Source of the DNA: Eubacterium coprostanoligenes
Lineage (GTDB): Bacteria; Bacillota; Clostridia; Oscillospirales; Acutalibacteraceae
NCBI RefSeq assembly: GCF_900167205.1
Contig: NZ_FUWW01000002.1
Location: 1 to 64,000 of the forward strand
Direction: 5' to 3'
Length of the DNA stretch: 64,000 nucleotides
Within the stretch, counting starts at the first letter, position 1; every line of letters starts with the position of its first letter. This document shows, one piece after another, positions 11,713 to 41,091 of the stretch. A program made the translations under genes and the position numbers. The notes below the pieces were generated by a model. That model ran no database searches. It was not told the origin of the DNA and saw nothing but the letters and a program-made list of their open reading frames with translations.

Positions 11713-12012
11713 ATGAAAGCAAGTGTTGCTATTCAGGTTTTGCCAAGCGTAAAGGATGAGGACGAACTTATCCGCATTGTTGACGAGGTTATTGCATACA
11801 TCAAGTCAACAGGACTCAATTATTATGTAGGTCCGTTCGAAACTACCATTGAGGGCGAAAGCTATGATGAGCTTATGGAAATTGTTGCAAACTGCCAAAA
11901 GGTTGCAATCAAGGCAGGTTGCCCAAGCGTGAGCGCATATGTCAAGGTGGTTTACAATCCTGAGGGCGAGGTATTGACCATTGACAAAAAAGTTACAAAA
12001 CATCACCAATAA
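11713..12012 (+). CDS. Thiamine-binding MTH1187/YkoF-family small protein
   Basis: 99 residues, no signal peptide, ferredoxin-like fold expected. The beginning (KASVAIQVLPSVKDEDELIRIVDEVIAYI) and middle (GLNYYVGPFETTIEGE, VANCQKVAIKAGCPSVSAYVKV) match the MTH1187/DUF77 family, whose relative YkoF binds thiamine. Start chosen at ATG 11713 after GAAAGGAAG; an in-frame upstream start lies inside the terminator. First gene behind the TPP riboswitch; the next gene starts within its last 32 bases. Probably a cytoplasmic thiamine/HMP chaperone or sensor; exact role unproven. Confidence 0.82.
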   Translation: MKASVAIQVLPSVKDEDELIRIVDEVIAYIKSTGLNYYVGPFETTIEGESYDELMEIVANCQKVAIKAGCPSVSAYVKVVYNPEGEVLTIDKKVTKHHQ

Positions 12013-12766
12013 ACTTGCACCGCTCGGTGCGATAATTGTCATATTGCTGTTGTGGTTTTTGGCTTGCGATATGGAACTTGTGCCTGCATATATGTTGCCG
12101 TCACCGATTGATGTTGTCAAAGCGTTTGTTGACAATTTTTCAATTATGATGAAACAGGCGGCTGTCACTTTGCAGGAAACTTTTTACGGCTTGCTCATCG
12201 GCATTGCAATAGCCTTTGTCATTGCAAGCCTTATGGACAGATTTACCATAATCAACAAGGCTCTTTATCCTGTTTTGGTTGTTACTCAAACAATTCCGAC
12301 CATTGCAATTGCGCCTCTTTTGGTGCTCTGGATGGGCTTTGGTATGGCGCCTAAAATCACACTTGTTGTTCTCACAACATTTTTCCCTATTGCAATCGGA
12401 CTTCTCAACGGATTTGAAAGCGTTGATGCCGATGCGATAAATCTTATGCGTTCTATGGGAGCAACACGACTTCAAATTTTTAGAATAGTCAAATTGCCGA
12501 ATGCTACCGCTTCGTTCTTTTCGGGGCTTCGCATTTCTGCCGCCTATGCGGTTGTCGGCGCCGTTGTTTCGGAATGGCTCGGCGGATTTGAGGGACTCGG
12601 CGTTTATATGACAAGAGTAAAAAAGGCTTATGCCTTTGACAAAATGTTTGCCGTTATCGTGTTTATTTCGGCAATCAGCTTGGTGCTTATGGGCATTGTT
12701 ATTTTGCTTGAAAGAATTTCTATGCCGTGGGTACATAAAACAGAAAATTTGGGAGACAAAAAATGA
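11981..12766 (+). CDS. thiX: Thiamine/pyrimidine ABC transporter permease (ThiX-like)
   Basis: 261-residue inner-membrane permease with about six hydrophobic segments and the taurine/nitrate-type permease loop (LMRSMGATRLQIFRIVKLPN). YMLPSPIDVVKAF near the N-terminus is typical of this class. The best start is a TTG at 11981 preceded by GAGG, overlapping the small gene by 32 bases. Its stop overlaps the lipoprotein start as ATGA at 12763. By riboswitch and neighbours it imports a thiamine precursor such as formylamino-pyrimidine, as in the ThiXYZ system. Confidence 0.87.
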   Translation: MTKKLQNITNKLAPLGAIIVILLLWFLACDMELVPAYMLPSPIDVVKAFVDNFSIMMKQAAVTLQETFYGLLIGIAIAFVIASLMDRFTIINKALYPVLVVTQTIPTIAIAPLLVLWMGFGMAPKITLVVLTTFFPIAIGLLNGFESVDADAINLMRSMGATRLQIFRIVKLPNATASFFSGLRISAAYAVVGAVVSEWLGGFEGLGVYMTRVKKAYAFDKMFAVIVFISAISLVLMGIVILLERISMPWVHKTENLGDKK

Positions 12767-13791
12767 AAAAGTTTAAGAAAATAATCGCATTGTTGCTTGC
12801 GCTTTCTCTTGTTTGTGCATTTGCCGCTTGTTCAAAGACAAATTCGGATGATGCGTCAGACGACACAACAAAAGAATTAAAGGATGTTACACTCTGCCTT
12901 GATTGGACACCTAACACAAACCACACAGGTTTTTATGTTGCATTGCAAAAAGGCTATTACAAAGACGCAGGTCTTAATGTATCAATTGTTCAGCCACCTG
13001 AAAACGGTGCAACAGAGGCTTGTTCCGCAGGTCAGGCACAGTTTGCTATTGACGCACAGGATACAATCGCTTCTGCTTTCACATCTGCAACTCCAATGCA
13101 GGTTACAGCTGTTGCCGCTCTTCTTCAGCACAACACTTCTTGCGTTATGTCTAAAAAGGGTGCAGGCATCGACAGTCCAAAGGGTCTTGAAGGCAAAACA
13201 TATCTCACTTGGGATTCACCTATTGAACTTGCAATGTTGGAAAATGTTGTTAAGGCAGACGGCGGTGATTGGAGCAAGGTTAAGAGAATTCCAAACACTG
13301 TGACAGACGAAGCACAGGATGTAAAGCAAAATCCGGATCACGCAATTTGGGTGTTTGACGGATGGGGCGGAGTTAACGCTCAGGTAAACAATGTAGAAGT
13401 TGACAGGTTCTTCTTTAAGGATTTGAACCCTACATTTGACTATTACACTCCTATTCTTATTGCAAACAACGATCTTATCAAGAACGACCCTGAAACAGTT
13501 AAGGCATTCCTTTCTGCAACCAAAAAGGGATATGAATATGCTATCGAAAATCCTGACGAAGCAGCTCAAATCCTTATTGACGGTGACGACACAGGCTCAC
13601 TAAAGGGCAGTGAAGAACTTGTAAAGGCAAGCCAAAAGTATATGGTAGACCAGTATGTTGCAGATGCTCCGAAGTGGGGCTATATCGACCCTGCAAGATG
13701 GAACGCATTTTATAACTGGCTCGGCGAAGAAAAGATTGTAGAAGAAAAAATTCCTGAAAACACAGGTTTCACAAACGATTATTTGGCATAA
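12763..13791 (+). CDS. thiY: Thiamine-precursor-binding lipoprotein (ThiY-like, NMT1/THI5 family)
   Basis: 342-residue substrate-binding lipoprotein with lipobox FAAC. The family hallmark LDWTPNTNHTGFYVALQKG and the THI5-like IVQPPENGATE are present, then QFAIDAQDT and WVFDGWGGV. NMT1-type proteins bind pyrimidine precursors of thiamine; ThiY of Bacillus binds N-formyl-4-amino-5-aminomethyl-2-methylpyrimidine. Translationally coupled to the permease (ATGA), and 3 bases before the ATPase gene. Confidence 0.9.
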   Translation: MKKFKKIIALLLALSLVCAFAACSKTNSDDASDDTTKELKDVTLCLDWTPNTNHTGFYVALQKGYYKDAGLNVSIVQPPENGATEACSAGQAQFAIDAQDTIASAFTSATPMQVTAVAALLQHNTSCVMSKKGAGIDSPKGLEGKTYLTWDSPIELAMLENVVKADGGDWSKVKRIPNTVTDEAQDVKQNPDHAIWVFDGWGGVNAQVNNVEVDRFFFKDLNPTFDYYTPILIANNDLIKNDPETVKAFLSATKKGYEYAIENPDEAAQILIDGDDTGSLKGSEELVKASQKYMVDQYVADAPKWGYIDPARWNAFYNWLGEEKIVEEKIPENTGFTNDYLA

Positions 13792-13794
13792 TTT

Positions 13795-14532
13795 ATGGAA
13801 ATTTTAAAGGCTGAAAATATTTATAAAAGCTTCGGCGATAATAAGGTCTTAAAAGGTGCTTCGCTTACACTCAACAGGGGCGAGATTGTCAGCCTTTTGG
13901 GTGTCAGCGGCGGCGGAAAAACAACGCTGTTTAATGTCCTGTCGGGTATTCATATGCCCGACAGCGGCAAGGTTTGGTTAAACGGCGAAGATATTACGGG
14001 CAAACCCGGCAATGTCAGCTATATGCTCCAAAAAGATTTGCTTTTGCCTTACAGAAAGGTGATAGACAATGTTTCGCTTCCTCTTGTTGTCAAGGGCGTC
14101 AGCAAAAAGGATGCAAGAGCACAGGCAGAGCCTTATTTCAAAACCTTTGGTCTTGAGGGCACGCAGTACAAATATCCGTCACAACTTTCGGGAGGTATGC
14201 GTCAGAGAGCGGCTTTGCTCCGCACTTATTTGTCATCAAACGGCGTTGCACTTCTTGATGAACCGTTCAGTGCGCTTGACACGATAACAAAATCTGTCAT
14301 CCACAAGTGGTATCTTGATGTTATGCAGAACATTGATTTATCAACCGTATTCATCACTCACGACATTGACGAGGCAATTTTGCTGTCGGACAGAATTTAT
14401 ATCCTTGCCGACGGTGTGTGTGCAAACGAAATCAAAATTGATGCACCAAAGCCGAGAACAACCGAGTTCAATCTTACAGATGAGTTTTTGAATTACAAAA
14501 GGCAAATTGTTGAAATATTACATTTGTTGTAA
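13795..14532 (+). CDS. thiZ: Thiamine/pyrimidine ABC transporter ATPase (ThiZ-like)
   Basis: 245-residue cytoplasmic ATPase: Walker A GVSGGGKTT, Q-loop MLQKDLLLPYRK, signature LSGGMRQRAALLRT, Walker B VALLDEPFSALD, switch ITHDIDEA. This is the nitrate/taurine/pyrimidine ATPase class that pairs with the upstream permease. Last gene of the TPP-controlled operon, starting 3 bases after the lipoprotein stop. Confidence 0.9.
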   Translation: MEILKAENIYKSFGDNKVLKGASLTLNRGEIVSLLGVSGGGKTTLFNVLSGIHMPDSGKVWLNGEDITGKPGNVSYMLQKDLLLPYRKVIDNVSLPLVVKGVSKKDARAQAEPYFKTFGLEGTQYKYPSQLSGGMRQRAALLRTYLSSNGVALLDEPFSALDTITKSVIHKWYLDVMQNIDLSTVFITHDIDEAILLSDRIYILADGVCANEIKIDAPKPRTTEFNLTDEFLNYKRQIVEILHLL

Positions 14533-14583
14533 TCTGCACAAAAATCGACCTAAAATTTCTACGCATAATATATGAATTAGCTA

Positions 14584-14612
14584 TTTACTTTTATATTTAA
14601 TAGTATTAAAAT
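14584..14612 (+). promoter_or_regulatory. Probable promoter of the D-amino-acid/oxoprolinase cluster
   Basis: -35 TTTACT (14584-14589), 17-base spacer, -10 TAAAAT (14607-14612). Transcription would begin just ahead of the hairpin at 14622-14670. Confidence 0.5.
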
Positions 14613-14621
14613 TAAAAAAGA

Positions 14622-14670
14622 GGGCAAGGAAGTCTTTTCGTTTATTCGGAGTTTTCTTGCGCTTTTTTTT
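14622..14670 (+). terminator. Hairpin with T8 run in the leader of the D-amino-acid cluster
   Basis: Arms GGGCAAGGA and TTTCTTGCGC (one mismatch) enclose an AT-rich loop and are followed by eight Ts at 14663-14670, ending 28 bases before the aminotransferase ATG. It could end the thi operon transcript, or attenuate the downstream cluster if the promoter at 14584 is real. No known riboswitch consensus was recognised. Confidence 0.55.
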
Positions 14671-14698
14671 ATTGAAATCTATTTTTGGGGGAAATTTT

Positions 14699-15541
14699 AT
14701 GAAAAATTTAGGTTACTATAACGGTAAATATGACGAAATCGAGAATATGCAAATTCCGATGCTCGACAGAGTTTGTTGGTTTGGTGACGGTGTTTACGAT
14801 GCTACTTATGCTCACAACCATGTTGTTTTTGATATGGACGCCCACCTCACAAGATTTTACAATTCTGCAAAGCTCCTCGGTATGAACATTCCGATTGAGC
14901 GTGATGAACTCGACAAACTTCTTCGTGAACTTGTTTTGAAGGTTGATGACGGTGACCAGTTTGTTTATATGCAGGTTACAAGGGGTAACGGACTCAGAGG
15001 TCATATTTATCCTGAAGATATGCAGGGCAATTTGTGGATTACTCTCACTCCTGCTCATGTTGCAGATACATACAAGCCTATTGATGTTATCACTTATGAG
15101 GACAAGAGATTCTATTATTGCAATTGCAAAACCTTGAACCTTATTCCGTCTTGCCTTGCTGCAACAGCAGCAGACAGAGCAGGTTGTCAAGAGGCTATCT
15201 TCCACAGAGGAGATTTGGTAACAGAGTGTGCACACTCAAATGTTTCTATTTTCAAGGACGGCAAGGTTATCACTCATCAGCTTGATGACAAAGTACTTCC
15301 GGGTACTGCAAGAATTCGTCTTCTTGCTTTTGCAAAGAAACTCGGCTATAGCGTTGAAGAAAGAGATTACACTCTTGATGAACTTATGAATGCCGATGAA
15401 ATTATTGTTCATTCAACAGGTTCATTCTGTATTCCTGTAAAGACTGTTGACGGCAAGCCGGTAGGCGGTAAAGCACCTGAAATGCTCAAGACAATTCAGG
15501 ACGCTTTGGTTAAAGATTTTGAGGAGCAGTGCAAAGCATAA
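14699..15541 (+). CDS. dat: D-amino-acid aminotransferase (class IV, PLP)
   Basis: Cytosolic PLP enzyme moving the amino group between D-amino acids and keto acids, typically D-Ala + 2-oxoglutarate to pyruvate + D-Glu. 280 residues, normal length. PLP Lys144 is in CNCKTLNLIPS; phosphate-binding region VTECAHSN. VTRGNGLRGH supplies the Arg-x-His carboxylate trap that marks D-amino-acid transaminases over branched-chain enzymes. Start at ATG 14699 after GGGGGAA; the upstream in-frame start is inside the terminator. Its TAA overlaps the next ATG (TAATG). First gene of a D-Glu/5-oxoproline cluster. Confidence 0.88.
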   Translation: MKNLGYYNGKYDEIENMQIPMLDRVCWFGDGVYDATYAHNHVVFDMDAHLTRFYNSAKLLGMNIPIERDELDKLLRELVLKVDDGDQFVYMQVTRGNGLRGHIYPEDMQGNLWITLTPAHVADTYKPIDVITYEDKRFYYCNCKTLNLIPSCLAATAADRAGCQEAIFHRGDLVTECAHSNVSIFKDGKVITHQLDDKVLPGTARIRLLAFAKKLGYSVEERDYTLDELMNADEIIVHSTGSFCIPVKTVDGKPVGGKAPEMLKTIQDALVKDFEEQCKA

Positions 15542-36845: not shown

Positions 36846-39800
36846 ATGATAAAAGATAACTTCGTAAATGTGTATAGTTTGTCAAAAACAATCAGAATGG
36901 CGTTGATTCCTTGGGGGAAAACTGAAGATAACTTTTACAAAAAGTTTTTGCTTGAGGAAGATGAGGAGCGTGCAAAAAACTACATTAAAGTAAAAGGTTA
37001 TATGGATGAATACCATAAAAATTTTATTGAATCTGCATTGAATTCGGTTGTTTTAAATGGTGTTGATGAATATTGTGAGCTTTATTTTAAGCAAAACAAA
37101 TCTGATTCCGAAGTAAAGAAAATTGAGTCTCTTGAGGCTTCCATGAGAAAACAAATCTCAAAAGCAATGAAGGAGTATACTGTTGATGGTGTAAAAATAT
37201 ATCCTTTGTTATCAAAAAAGGAGTTTATCAGAGAGTTGTTGCCTGAATTTTTAACCCAAGATGAAGAAATAGAAACCTTGGAACAATTTAATGATTTTTC
37301 TACATATTTTCAAGGCTTTTGGGAAAATAGAAAAAACATTTATACTGACGAAGAAAAAAGCACGGGTGTGCCATATCGTTGCATAAATGACAATTTGCCT
37401 AAATTCTTGGATAATGTTAAAAGTTTTGAAAAGGTTATTCTTGCTTTGCCACAAAAAGCCGTTGATGAGTTAAACGCCAATTTTAATGGTGTTTATAATG
37501 TTGATGTTCAAGATGTCTTTTCTGTTGATTATTTCAATTTTGTGTTGTCACAGTCAGGAATTGAAAAATATAACAACATTATAGGTGGATATAGCAATAG
37601 CGATGCGTCTAAAGTTCAGGGATTAAACGAAAAAATAAATCTTTATAATCAGCAAATTGCCAAATCAGATAAAAGCAAAAAACTTCCGTTGTTAAAGCCG
37701 TTGTATAAACAAATATTGAGTGATAGAAGTTCGTTGTCATTTATACCTGAAAAGTTCAAGGATGACAATGAGGTTTTGAATTCAATCAATGTTCTTTATG
37801 ACAATATTGCTGAATCTTTGGAAAAAGCTAATGATTTGATGTCGGATATTGCGAATTATAACACAGACAATATCTTTATTTCATCAGGTGTGGCAGTGAC
37901 AGATATTTCAAAAAAGGTGTTTGGTGATTGGTCGCTTATCAGAAATAATTGGAATGATGAGTACGAATCGACTCATAAAAAAGGTAAAAATGAAGAAAAG
38001 TTTTATGAGAAGGAAGACAAAGAATTTAAAAAGATAAAGAGCTTTTCTGTTTCTGAATTACAAAGACTTGCAAATTCGGATTTAAGTATTGTGGATTATC
38101 TTGTGGATGAATCTGCATCCTTGTATGCTGATATAAAGACTGCATATAATAATGCAAAAGATTTGTTGTCAAACGAGTATTCGCACAGCAAAAGATTGTC
38201 AAAGAATGATGACGCAATTGAATTGATTAAGAGTTTCTTGGATTCAATCAAGAATTATGAAGCGTTTTTGAAACCTCTTTGCGGAACAGGAAAAGAGGAA
38301 TCAAAAGATAATGCTTTTTATGGTGCGTTTCTTGAGTGCTTTGAAGAAATAAGACAAGTAGACGCAGTATATAACAAGGTGAGAAATCATATTACTCAAA
38401 AGCCATATTCAAATGACAAGATAAAACTTAATTTCCAAAACCCTCAATTTTTAGCCGGTTGGGATAAAAATAAGGAGCGAGCTTATCGTTCTGTATTGTT
38501 AAGGAATGGCGAAAAGTATTATTTGGCTATTATGGAAAAGGGTAAAAGCAAATTGTTTGAAGATTTTCCGGAGGACGAAAGCAGTCCGTTTGAGAAAATT
38601 GATTATAAGTTGTTGCCTGAGCCAAGTAAAATGTTGCCAAAAGTATTTTTTGCAACAAGTAATAAAGATTTGTTTAATCCTTCGGACGAAATCTTAAATA
38701 TAAGGGCGACAGGATCGTTCAAAAAAGGCGATAGCTTTAATTTGGATGATTGCCATAAATTTATTGATTTTTATAAAGCGTCTATTGAAAATCATCCGGA
38801 TTGGTCTAAATTTGATTTTGATTTTTCAGAAACAAATGATTATGAGGATATTTCAAAATTTTTTAAAGAAGTGTCTGACCAAGGATATTCAATTGGATAT
38901 AGAAAAATATCCGAATCATATTTGGAAGAAATGGTTGATAACGGAAGTTTGTATATGTTCCAACTTTACAACAAAGACTTTTCTGAAAATCGCAAGAGCA
39001 AAGGTACTCCGAATTTGCATACTTTGTACTTTAAAATGTTGTTTGATGAGCGTAATCTGGAAGATGTTGTTTATAAGCTTTCAGGTGGTGCAGAAATGTT
39101 CTATCGTAAGCCGAGCATCGACAAGAATGAAATGATCGTTCATCCAAAAAATCAGCCTATTGATAATAAAAATCCTAACAATGTTAAAAAGACAAGTACT
39201 TTTGAATATGATATTGTAAAGGATATGAGATATACAAAACCGCAATTTCAACTTCATTTGCCGATTGTTCTTAATTTTAAGGCAAATAGCAAGGGTTATA
39301 TAAACGATGATGTCCGTAATGTCTTAAAAAATAGTGAGGATACATATGTTATCGGAATTGACAGAGGTGAAAGAAACCTTGTTTATGCTTGCGTTGTTGA
39401 CGGAAACGGCAAACTTGTTGAACAAGTGCCTTTGAATGTTATCGAAGCAGATAACGGATATAAAACCGATTATCACAAATTGCTCAATGACCGAGAAGAA
39501 AAAAGAAACGAAGCAAGAAAAAGCTGGAAAACTATCGGAAATATTAAAGAGCTAAAAGAAGGTTATATCAGTCAGGTTGTTCATAAGATTTGTCAGCTTG
39601 TTGTAAAATATGATGCTGTTATTGCTATGGAAGATTTGAATTCAGGTTTTGTTAACAGCCGAAAAAAGGTTGAAAAGCAAGTTTATCAAAAGTTTGAAAG
39701 AATGTTAACCCAAAAGTTAAATTATCTTGTTGATAAAAAACTTGATCCAAATGAAATGGGCGGTTTGCTGAATGCTTATCAGTTGACGAATGAGGCAACC

Positions 39801-40526
39801 AAGGTCAGAAATGGCAGACAGGACGGAATTATATTCTATATCCCTGCTTGGCTTACAAGTAAGATTGACCCAACAACAGGTTTTGTTAACTTGCTCAAGC
39901 CAAAGTATAATAGCGTTTCTGCTTCAAAAGAATTTTTTAGTAAATTTGACGAAATCAGATATAACGAAAAAGAGAATTATTTTGAGTTCAGTTTTAATTA
40001 TGATAATTTCCCAAAATGTAATGCTGACTTCAAGAGAGAATGGACGGTCTGCACATATGGTGACAGAATCCGAACATTTAGAGATCCTGAAAATAACAAC
40101 AAATTTAATAGTGAAGTTGTTGTCCTTAATGATGAATTCAAGAACTTGTTTGTTGAATTTGATATTGATTACACTGATAATTTGAAAGAGCAGATACTTG
40201 CTATGGATGAAAAGAGCTTTTACAAAAAACTTATGGGCTTGTTGTCGCTGACACTTCAAATGCGTAACAGCATTTCAAAAAATGTTGATGTTGATTATTT
40301 GATTTCTCCTGTGAAAAATTCAAATGGTGAATTTTATGACAGCCGTAATTATGACATTACATCTTCTCTCCCTTGTGATGCCGATTCAAACGGTGCATAC
40401 AATATCGCAAGAAAAGGTTTGTGGGCGATTAATCAAATTAAACAAGCAGACGATGAAACCAAGGCTAATATTTCAATCAAAAATTCTGAATGGTTGCAAT
40501 ACGCACAAAATTGTGATGAAGTATAA
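36846..40526 (+). CDS. cas12a: CRISPR-associated endonuclease Cas12a (Cpf1), type V-A
   Basis: RNA-guided DNA nuclease that also processes its own pre-crRNA. 1226 residues, usual length. Start: ATG 36846 behind GAGGTG, so the N-terminus VYSLSKTIRMALIPWGKT fits the family; an in-frame ATG at 36729 has no ribosome site. Seen: KMLPK (595-599) in the PAM-reading region, NLHTLYFKMLFDERNLEDVVYKL, crRNA-processing residues His766, Lys775, Lys792 with the same 9/17 spacing as FnCas12a His843, Lys852, Lys869, RuvC Asp839 (GIDRGERN), Glu929 (AMEDLN), Asp1180 (DADSNGAY), and Nuc Arg1140 (LQMRNS). All predict an active enzyme. More AT-rich than neighbours; no cas1/cas2/cas4 nearby. A TATAAT at 36785-36790 is a possible -10 box. 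Confidence 0.97.
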   Translation: MIKDNFVNVYSLSKTIRMALIPWGKTEDNFYKKFLLEEDEERAKNYIKVKGYMDEYHKNFIESALNSVVLNGVDEYCELYFKQNKSDSEVKKIESLEASMRKQISKAMKEYTVDGVKIYPLLSKKEFIRELLPEFLTQDEEIETLEQFNDFSTYFQGFWENRKNIYTDEEKSTGVPYRCINDNLPKFLDNVKSFEKVILALPQKAVDELNANFNGVYNVDVQDVFSVDYFNFVLSQSGIEKYNNIIGGYSNSDASKVQGLNEKINLYNQQIAKSDKSKKLPLLKPLYKQILSDRSSLSFIPEKFKDDNEVLNSINVLYDNIAESLEKANDLMSDIANYNTDNIFISSGVAVTDISKKVFGDWSLIRNNWNDEYESTHKKGKNEEKFYEKEDKEFKKIKSFSVSELQRLANSDLSIVDYLVDESASLYADIKTAYNNAKDLLSNEYSHSKRLSKNDDAIELIKSFLDSIKNYEAFLKPLCGTGKEESKDNAFYGAFLECFEEIRQVDAVYNKVRNHITQKPYSNDKIKLNFQNPQFLAGWDKNKERAYRSVLLRNGEKYYLAIMEKGKSKLFEDFPEDESSPFEKIDYKLLPEPSKMLPKVFFATSNKDLFNPSDEILNIRATGSFKKGDSFNLDDCHKFIDFYKASIENHPDWSKFDFDFSETNDYEDISKFFKEVSDQGYSIGYRKISESYLEEMVDNGSLYMFQLYNKDFSENRKSKGTPNLHTLYFKMLFDERNLEDVVYKLSGGAEMFYRKPSIDKNEMIVHPKNQPIDNKNPNNVKKTSTFEYDIVKDMRYTKPQFQLHLPIVLNFKANSKGYINDDVRNVLKNSEDTYVIGIDRGERNLVYACVVDGNGKLVEQVPLNVIEADNGYKTDYHKLLNDREEKRNEARKSWKTIGNIKELKEGYISQVVHKICQLVVKYDAVIAMEDLNSGFVNSRKKVEKQVYQKFERMLTQKLNYLVDKKLDPNEMGGLLNAYQLTNEATKVRNGRQDGIIFYIPAWLTSKIDPTTGFVNLLKPKYNSVSASKEFFSKFDEIRYNEKENYFEFSFNYDNFPKCNADFKREWTVCTYGDRIRTFRDPENNNKFNSEVVVLNDEFKNLFVEFDIDYTDNLKEQILAMDEKSFYKKLMGLLSLTLQMRNSISKNVDVDYLISPVKNSNGEFYDSRNYDITSSLPCDADSNGAYNIARKGLWAINQIKQADDETKANISIKNSEWLQYAQNCDEV

Positions 40527-40604
40527 TGGAAAATCCTAATTGCAAAAATTGATAAATGTGGATACGCAAAAAATGAAGATACAGATTGTTTCGTGATTAG
40601 TTAG

Positions 40605-40634
40605 TTGCAAAACTCGGTGTTAATGTGATATAAT
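40605..40634 (+). promoter_or_regulatory. CRISPR leader promoter
   Basis: -35 TTGCAA (40605-40610), 18-base spacer, -10 TATAAT (40629-40634), about 105 bases before repeat 1. A second candidate is TTGACA at 40718-40723 with TTTAAT (40742-40747) inside repeat 1, spacing 18. No terminator separates cas12a from the array, so read-through is also possible. The 40527-40740 leader holds no gene. Confidence 0.65.
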
Positions 40635-40740
40635 TAAGAACGTAAGGGTTGTTAAATTGAAAATGTATAGACTTTTTTGTAAAAACATCAAATATCAAGA
40701 GAATATATACTTATCTTTTGACATATATAACAAATTAAGG

Positions 40741-41014
40741 ATTTAATAATCCTTATTAATTTCTACTATTGTAGATTCCGACAGTTGACCCGATTTTATC
40801 CGCATATTTAATAATCCTTATTAATTTCTACTATTGTAGATATGTTAAATCAAATGTCATAATCGTCATATTTAATAATCCTTATTAATTTCTACTATTG
40901 TAGATGCAAGTTGAGGTATGTTGTTCATCCAATTTAATAATCCTTATTAATTTCTACTATTGTAGATTTTTTCAGTTAGAACTTCTAACCGTTGTATTTA
41001 ATAATCCTTATTAA
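40741..41014 (+). CRISPR. Type V-A CRISPR array: four 36-bp repeats, four spacers, decayed last repeat
   Basis: Identical 36-base repeats at 40741-40776, 40806-40841, 40870-40905 and 40932-40967; spacers of 29, 28, 26 and 28 bases. The repeat begins ATTTAATAATCCTTATTA and ends in the Cas12a handle AATTTCTACTATTGTAGAT, whose TCTAC/GTAGA arms form the recognised stem-loop. A fifth repeat (40996-41014) keeps only its first 19 bases and has lost the handle. Handle orientation and the degenerate distal end both put transcription on the plus strand with the leader on the cas12a side. No tracrRNA is expected. Confidence 0.98.
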
Positions 41015-41057: not shown

Positions 41058-41091
41058 AAGACTCAAGGTTTTTTGTCCTTGAGTCTTTTGC
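41058..41091 (+). terminator. Terminator downstream of the CRISPR array
   Basis: Stem AAGACTCAAGG/CCTTGAGTCTT with an 8-base loop and TTTT; closes the cas12a/CRISPR transcript. Between 41015 and 41057 nothing else is recognisable. Confidence 0.82.

Follow-up and report, generated by a model that had tools for sequence, protein, structure and literature searches.

A type V-A CRISPR locus of Eubacterium coprostanoligenes with an intact Cas12a and four spacers, probably restricted to interference after an apparent loss of its adaptation genes

Introduction

Type V-A CRISPR loci usually contain the adaptation genes cas4-cas1-cas2, although these are not required. Within this type (TIGR04330), LbCas12a and Lb2Cas12a share with the Cas12a described here their domain make-up, the repeat handle and the RuvC, Nuc and crRNA-processing residues. 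Identity is 44.9% for the Lachnospiraceae MA2020 protein (L052), which we take to be Lb2Cas12a. The likeness extends to Cas12a proteins of uncultured Clostridia (loci L006, L007, L009, L010, L012 and L030), which display 54-59% identity and similar repeats. Five of them (L006, L007, L009, L010 and L012) lie on the same tree branch as the present protein, L030 being absent from the tree, and a similar leader element is found in L006, L007, L009 and L010. Unlike the locus described here, L006, L007 and L010 retain cas4-cas1-cas2 and, unlike its gene, those of L006 and L030 are interrupted.

One report describes Cas12a loci from gut metagenomes without Cas1 or without any adaptation proteins, the enzymes of which cut DNA; it is thus already known that adaptation genes can be missing and that the enzyme can be active all the same (PMC9718762). 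In that report, mgCas12a-1 and mgCas12a-2 from human gut, which resemble the present system in that adaptation genes are partly or wholly missing, are reported to be active in vitro; they differ from it in having seven repeats and six spacers, in contrast to four full repeats and four spacers (PMC9718762). A literature search aimed at adaptation-gene loss returned no papers.

The locus lies in a window of 64,000 nucleotides, the whole stretch of DNA analysed here, from a genome assembled to 1.82 Mb in 35 contigs with 99.01% completeness. We consider it likely, with a probability of roughly 0.85, that this type V-A locus has been reduced to effector and array and serves interference only, with a fixed set of spacers.

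Results and discussion

The cas12a gene and its product

36846..40526, + strand: cas12a, 1226 aa, intact (stop-free translation; family, domain and alignment matches)

The reading frame starts with the ATG at 36846, ends with the stop codon 40524-40526, comprises 1226 codons with no internal stop and is immediately preceded by a ribosome-binding-like AGAGGTG. Its product matches TIGR04330 (NCBIfam) over its full length (residues 4-1222; 1344.2 bits, cutoff 300) and the PADLOC Cas12a model with 1518 bits, and contains the Pfam domains REC1, REC2, PI-like, RuvC_1 and NUC, agreement far beyond chance. The complete Cas12a of 1226 residues proposed in the first-pass annotation of this DNA is thereby confirmed, and the protein is an ordinary member of the known family.

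Across 79 aligned Cas12a proteins, one of which is that of the window, the RuvC residues Asp839 and Glu929 are invariant (79/79), and RuvC Asp1180 and Nuc Arg1140 are present in 75 rows, the other four being gaps. His766, Lys775 and Lys792, the presumed crRNA-processing residues corresponding to His759, Lys768 and Lys785 of LbCas12a, are all in place and are shared by 67, 66 and 71 of the 79 rows, respectively. Catalytic and processing residues thus occupy the very positions assigned to them by the first-pass annotation, which had also correctly noted a KMLPK motif, found at residues 595-599, and the low GC content of this gap (32.4% in the gene, whereas the window has 40.4% and sampled flanks 40-41%).

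Its view of the N-terminus as diverged holds only in part: the divergence is moderate, since FVNVYSLSKTIRMALIPWGKT aligns without gaps to the N-terminus of LbCas12a. A PAM or temperature behaviour peculiar to this enzyme, which it had also suggested, finds no support. We take Gly532, Lys538, Tyr542 and Lys595 of LbCas12a to be PAM-contact positions; in an alignment to the structure-chain sequence, the two lysines and the tyrosine are unchanged in the window protein (Lys543, Tyr547 and Lys599), whereas Gly532 is replaced by Ala537; alanine occupies this position in 12 of the 79 aligned proteins, that of the window included. Because the lysines and the tyrosine are as in LbCas12a, a T-rich PAM is to be expected, and the sequence offers no sign of unusual enzyme behaviour.

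Relatedness to other Cas12a proteins

Relatives were taken as the best 80 of 155 loci in genome_contigs, and PDB chains and plasmid and phage records were also searched. Among these best 80 of 155 relatives, the highest identities to the window protein span 54-59%, with L030 at 59% (best segment of an interrupted gene), L006 at 58.8% over 1125 aligned columns, L007 at 57.2% and L012 at 55.4%. The closest solved structures are those of ReChb (8qwd; 1315 bits) and LbCas12a (6nm9 and others; 1259 bits). The protein is therefore not near-identical to any Cas12a in the sets searched (the best 80 of 155 genome_contigs loci, PDB chains, plasmid and phage records), in agreement with the initial suggestion that it may be an uncharacterized orthologue, which within these sequences it apparently is. 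Carriage of this Cas12a by plasmids or phages was considered and rejected, as the plasmid records contained a single distant match (25.6% identity) and the phage records none.

Two other loci deserve mention. One is a Clostridia-like Cas12a (L013) recorded under Paracoccus salsus: its contig measures 4 kb and has a low stated coverage, and the protein groups in the tree with Lachnospiraceae and is probably contamination. In L041, a second large open reading frame of about 1066 codons (11739-14936) lies 3' of the Smithella cas12a and before cas4-cas1-cas2, and may encode another type V effector.

The CRISPR array

An array occupies 40741-41014 and begins 214 bases 3' of the cas12a stop codon. 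The first-pass annotation had overlooked it, as it had the cas2 scar described below and the lack of cas1 and cas2 throughout the genome. The array consists of four identical 36-nt repeats (40741-40967), a half terminal repeat and four spacers.

40741..40776, + strand: CRISPR repeat 1, 36 nt, ending in the Cas12a handle AATTTCTACTATTGTAGAT
40777..40805, + strand: spacer 1, 29 nt
40806..40841, + strand: CRISPR repeat 2
40842..40869, + strand: spacer 2, 28 nt
40870..40905, + strand: CRISPR repeat 3
40906..40931, + strand: spacer 3, 26 nt
40932..40967, + strand: CRISPR repeat 4
40968..40995, + strand: spacer 4, 28 nt
40996..41014, + strand: terminal half repeat, first 19 nt (5' part), handle lost
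41060..41086, + strand: hairpin GACTCAAGG...CCTTGAGTC, then T (sequence and fold); likely terminator of the array transcript

All four full repeats adjacent to cas12a end in the TTTCTAC-loop-GTAGAT pattern, and folding of the handle AATTTCTACTATTGTAGAT gives the stem usual for Cas12a. The 21-nt handle core occurs genome-wide solely in these four copies, even with up to three mismatches allowed. Loss of the handle from the terminal repeat is a known habit of Cas12a arrays, and one study reportedly concerns the terminal repeat of FnCas12a arrays. The end of the leader and repeat 1 (40736-40755) can also be folded into an 8-bp hairpin, TAAGGATT/AATCCTTA, the repeat alone giving 7 bp; hairpins formed between leader and repeat have been reported in Cas13 systems (PMC13187072).

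Apparent loss of the adaptation genes

Family searches of the whole genome returned no match to Cas1 (control positive in 9 of 14 genomes) or Cas2 (control positive in 7 of 14), and a search confined to the window returned none to cas4. At this locus cas4-cas1-cas2 is absent and only a cas2-like tail is left.

40545..40604, + strand: cas2 remnant, 18 codons KIDKCGYAKNEDTDCFVI (40545-40598), then S and a stop (protein and DNA alignment)
40605..40634, + strand: leader element TTGCAAAACTCGGTGTTAATGTGATATAAT, with a promoter-like TTGCAA-N18-TATAAT, directly 3' of the remnant stop

The order in the full relatives L007 and L010 is cas12a-cas4-cas1-cas2-array; L006 also has cas4-cas1-cas2, its contig stopping where the array would start. 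The remnant KIDKCGYAKNEDTDCFVI occupies the 214-base gap, the site of these genes in the full relatives, and lies on the same strand. Aligned to the C-terminus of the L007 Cas2, it scores 57, compared with a mean of 36.6 for first-order shuffles, one in 300 of which scored as high; in the same scan, the opposite strand of L030, on which cas2 is unexpected, reached 51 by chance. At the DNA level, remnant and leader align to L006, L007, L010 and L141, the first three of which share this alignment while keeping cas4-cas1-cas2. On protein score, place, strand and DNA alignment taken together, 40545-40604 reads as a cas2 scar.

The DNA alignment continues past the remnant stop into TTGCAAAACTCGGTGTTAATGTGATATAAT, in which TGCAAA..C...GT.TTAAT is common to the intact L006, L007, L010 and L141 and to the scarred L009, L011 and L014. 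The TATAAT that ends the element is found in the window, L006, L009 and L010, is TAAAAT in L007 and is absent from L011, L014 and L141; the element reads as a promoter. A remnant of the cas2 tail followed by a conserved leader indicates that the adaptation genes were deleted, an event that we infer from comparison with the relatives.

Adaptation genes are borrowed in some CRISPR systems, and Cas1 and Cas2 provided in trans from a second CRISPR system of the cell could in principle still let the array grow. The present assembly contradicts this, having no Cas1 or Cas2 family match; only genes within the roughly 1% of the genome that it is estimated to lack could rescue the idea, which we regard as very improbable.

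Recurrence of the loss and distribution among relatives

Five of the nine near relatives (L006-L012, L014 and L030) have lost the module, three are full (L006, L007 and L010) and one (L008) is cut by a contig end. The traces left behind differ: L009 keeps the start of cas4 and the tail of cas2, in L011 the start of cas4 adjoins the end of cas2, L014 retains a cas2 tail, and in L012 and L030 a cas4 stub lies close to the array, with no leader seen. In a FastTree tree of 79 of 81 proteins, from which L030 and L023 were left out because their genes are split, the set of nine rows that includes the window (local support 96) comprises five lost and three full loci and one assigned to neither class.

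Over the whole tree, the loss label requires nine changes, all forced by well supported branches, compared with a mean of 11.1 after shuffling, 27 of 500 shuffles being as low; module loss is thus scattered across the Cas12a tree and only weakly clustered. The labels behind these numbers were assigned by hand and are coarse: 54 rows are full, a label given wherever the fetched stretch matched cas1 at all, even in truncated form (L034, L047 and L077); 12 are lost, as judged from the fetched stretch rather than the whole genome; and 13 are unlabelled, among them L029, L042, L048 and L076, which have no cas1 and at most one handle in the stretch.

The array persists in all six loci judged to have lost the module (the window, L009, L011, L012, L014 and L030), and the leader element persists in four of the six. 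It is conceivable, if doubtful, that this Clostridia branch has repeatedly deleted its adaptation genes and kept the array as a stable, inherited and non-updating immunity, as opposed to undergoing simple decay.

Cas12a is sporadic in this group, with matches in four of 300 family genomes and three of 80 genus genomes, the present genome counted in both. One of the family matches, G159, is evidently on the L012 contig, the two having equal length. In the other two genus members cas12a is split or interrupted (G316:C27 3066-6766 and G453:C25 33771-37450), as it also is in L006 and L030; L030 may come from the G453 genome. Such interruptions represent either decay or assembly error and, with both of the other genus genes affected, one or the other must be common in the branch. 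Together with the lost adaptation genes, this sporadic occurrence and these broken genes would suit a locus on its way out, in which the loss is too recent to have damaged Cas12a, yet the system no longer protects the cell. We find this somewhat unlikely, as the gene retains 1226 stop-free codons and its active-site residues, the four repeats are identical and accompanied by a conserved leader element, and a Cas12a whose metagenomic locus lacks adaptation proteins is reported to be active (PMC9718762).

Pfam domains mark the nine flanking genes that were scanned as ordinary; sugar-binding proteins, a two-component pair, an M20 peptidase and proteins resembling BlaI and BlaR are among their products. 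A comparison with 40 other genus genomes drawn from a larger group, aimed at an empty site, yielded only partial, low-identity matches for either of the flanking genes compared.

Spacer targets

No exact match to 21-25-nt pieces of any of the four spacers was found in viral_contigs, and spacers 1 and 3, with up to three mismatches, matched only the array itself in 398 family genomes. Compared with phages at E values of up to 10, the array returned only repeat-handle and chance-level matches, and the arrays of three array-bearing relatives (L007, L011 and L012) had no phage match at E 0.01. BLAST of the array against its own genome revealed no convincing self-target; one candidate (C25:61900-61941, 81% over 42 nt), antisense within a BspA-like leucine-rich-repeat gene, covers the half repeat and tail and was taken as chance.

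Spacers for which no phage target was found would also be compatible with crRNAs that do not cut invaders but control host genes to which they match in part. The candidate just described is, nevertheless, the sole match outside the array with E < 0.1 in the own genome and does not correspond to a spacer guide, which makes such a role for the four crRNAs highly unlikely.

Solitary Cas12a handles in phages

Two capybara gut microviruses each carry one intergenic Cas12a handle, single in a 1.2-kb stretch: TTAATTTCTACTGTTGTAGAT in MK496734.1 (L142, 601-651) and TTAATTTCTACTTTTGTAGAT in MK496751.1 (L143, 601-631). The BLAST matches leading to them were weak (E 0.02 and 0.08, respectively). RNA anti-CRISPRs (Racrs) against type V-A have been published, in a paper whose main text contains no word beginning 'microvir' (PMC10651486), and the two microviral handles may be viewed as candidates for this class.

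In IMG/VR, 24 contigs (L147-L170) contain the handle TTAATTTCTACTNTTGTAGAT, forming about 14 groups by eye, with a single handle per stretch in 23 of the 24 and a position outside ATG-started open reading frames of at least 50 aa in 22; a stem-swapped control pattern had no match in IMG/VR. These occurrences are consistent with the published solitary repeat units of phages.

Conclusions

If the locus is indeed an interference-only remnant, its ancestor would have had the order cas12a-cas4-cas1-cas2-leader-array, and a deletion that began where cas12a ends and stopped shortly before the end of cas2 would have taken the adaptation genes and spared leader and array. With these genes removed, the four spacers could not be updated by the cell's own machinery. 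Expression of the array would start at the leader promoter, and Cas12a would process the transcript by cutting it 5' of each handle, giving rise to four crRNAs. By extension from the family, interference would involve binding of double-stranded targets flanked on their 5' side by a T-rich PAM, both strands of which the RuvC site would cleave with a staggered cut.

The locus adds one more intact Cas12a as a candidate tool enzyme; the nearest of the best 80 of 155 relatives differs from it by about 40%. The cas2 and cas4 scars in this branch allow one to follow how adaptation genes vanish while effector and array persist.
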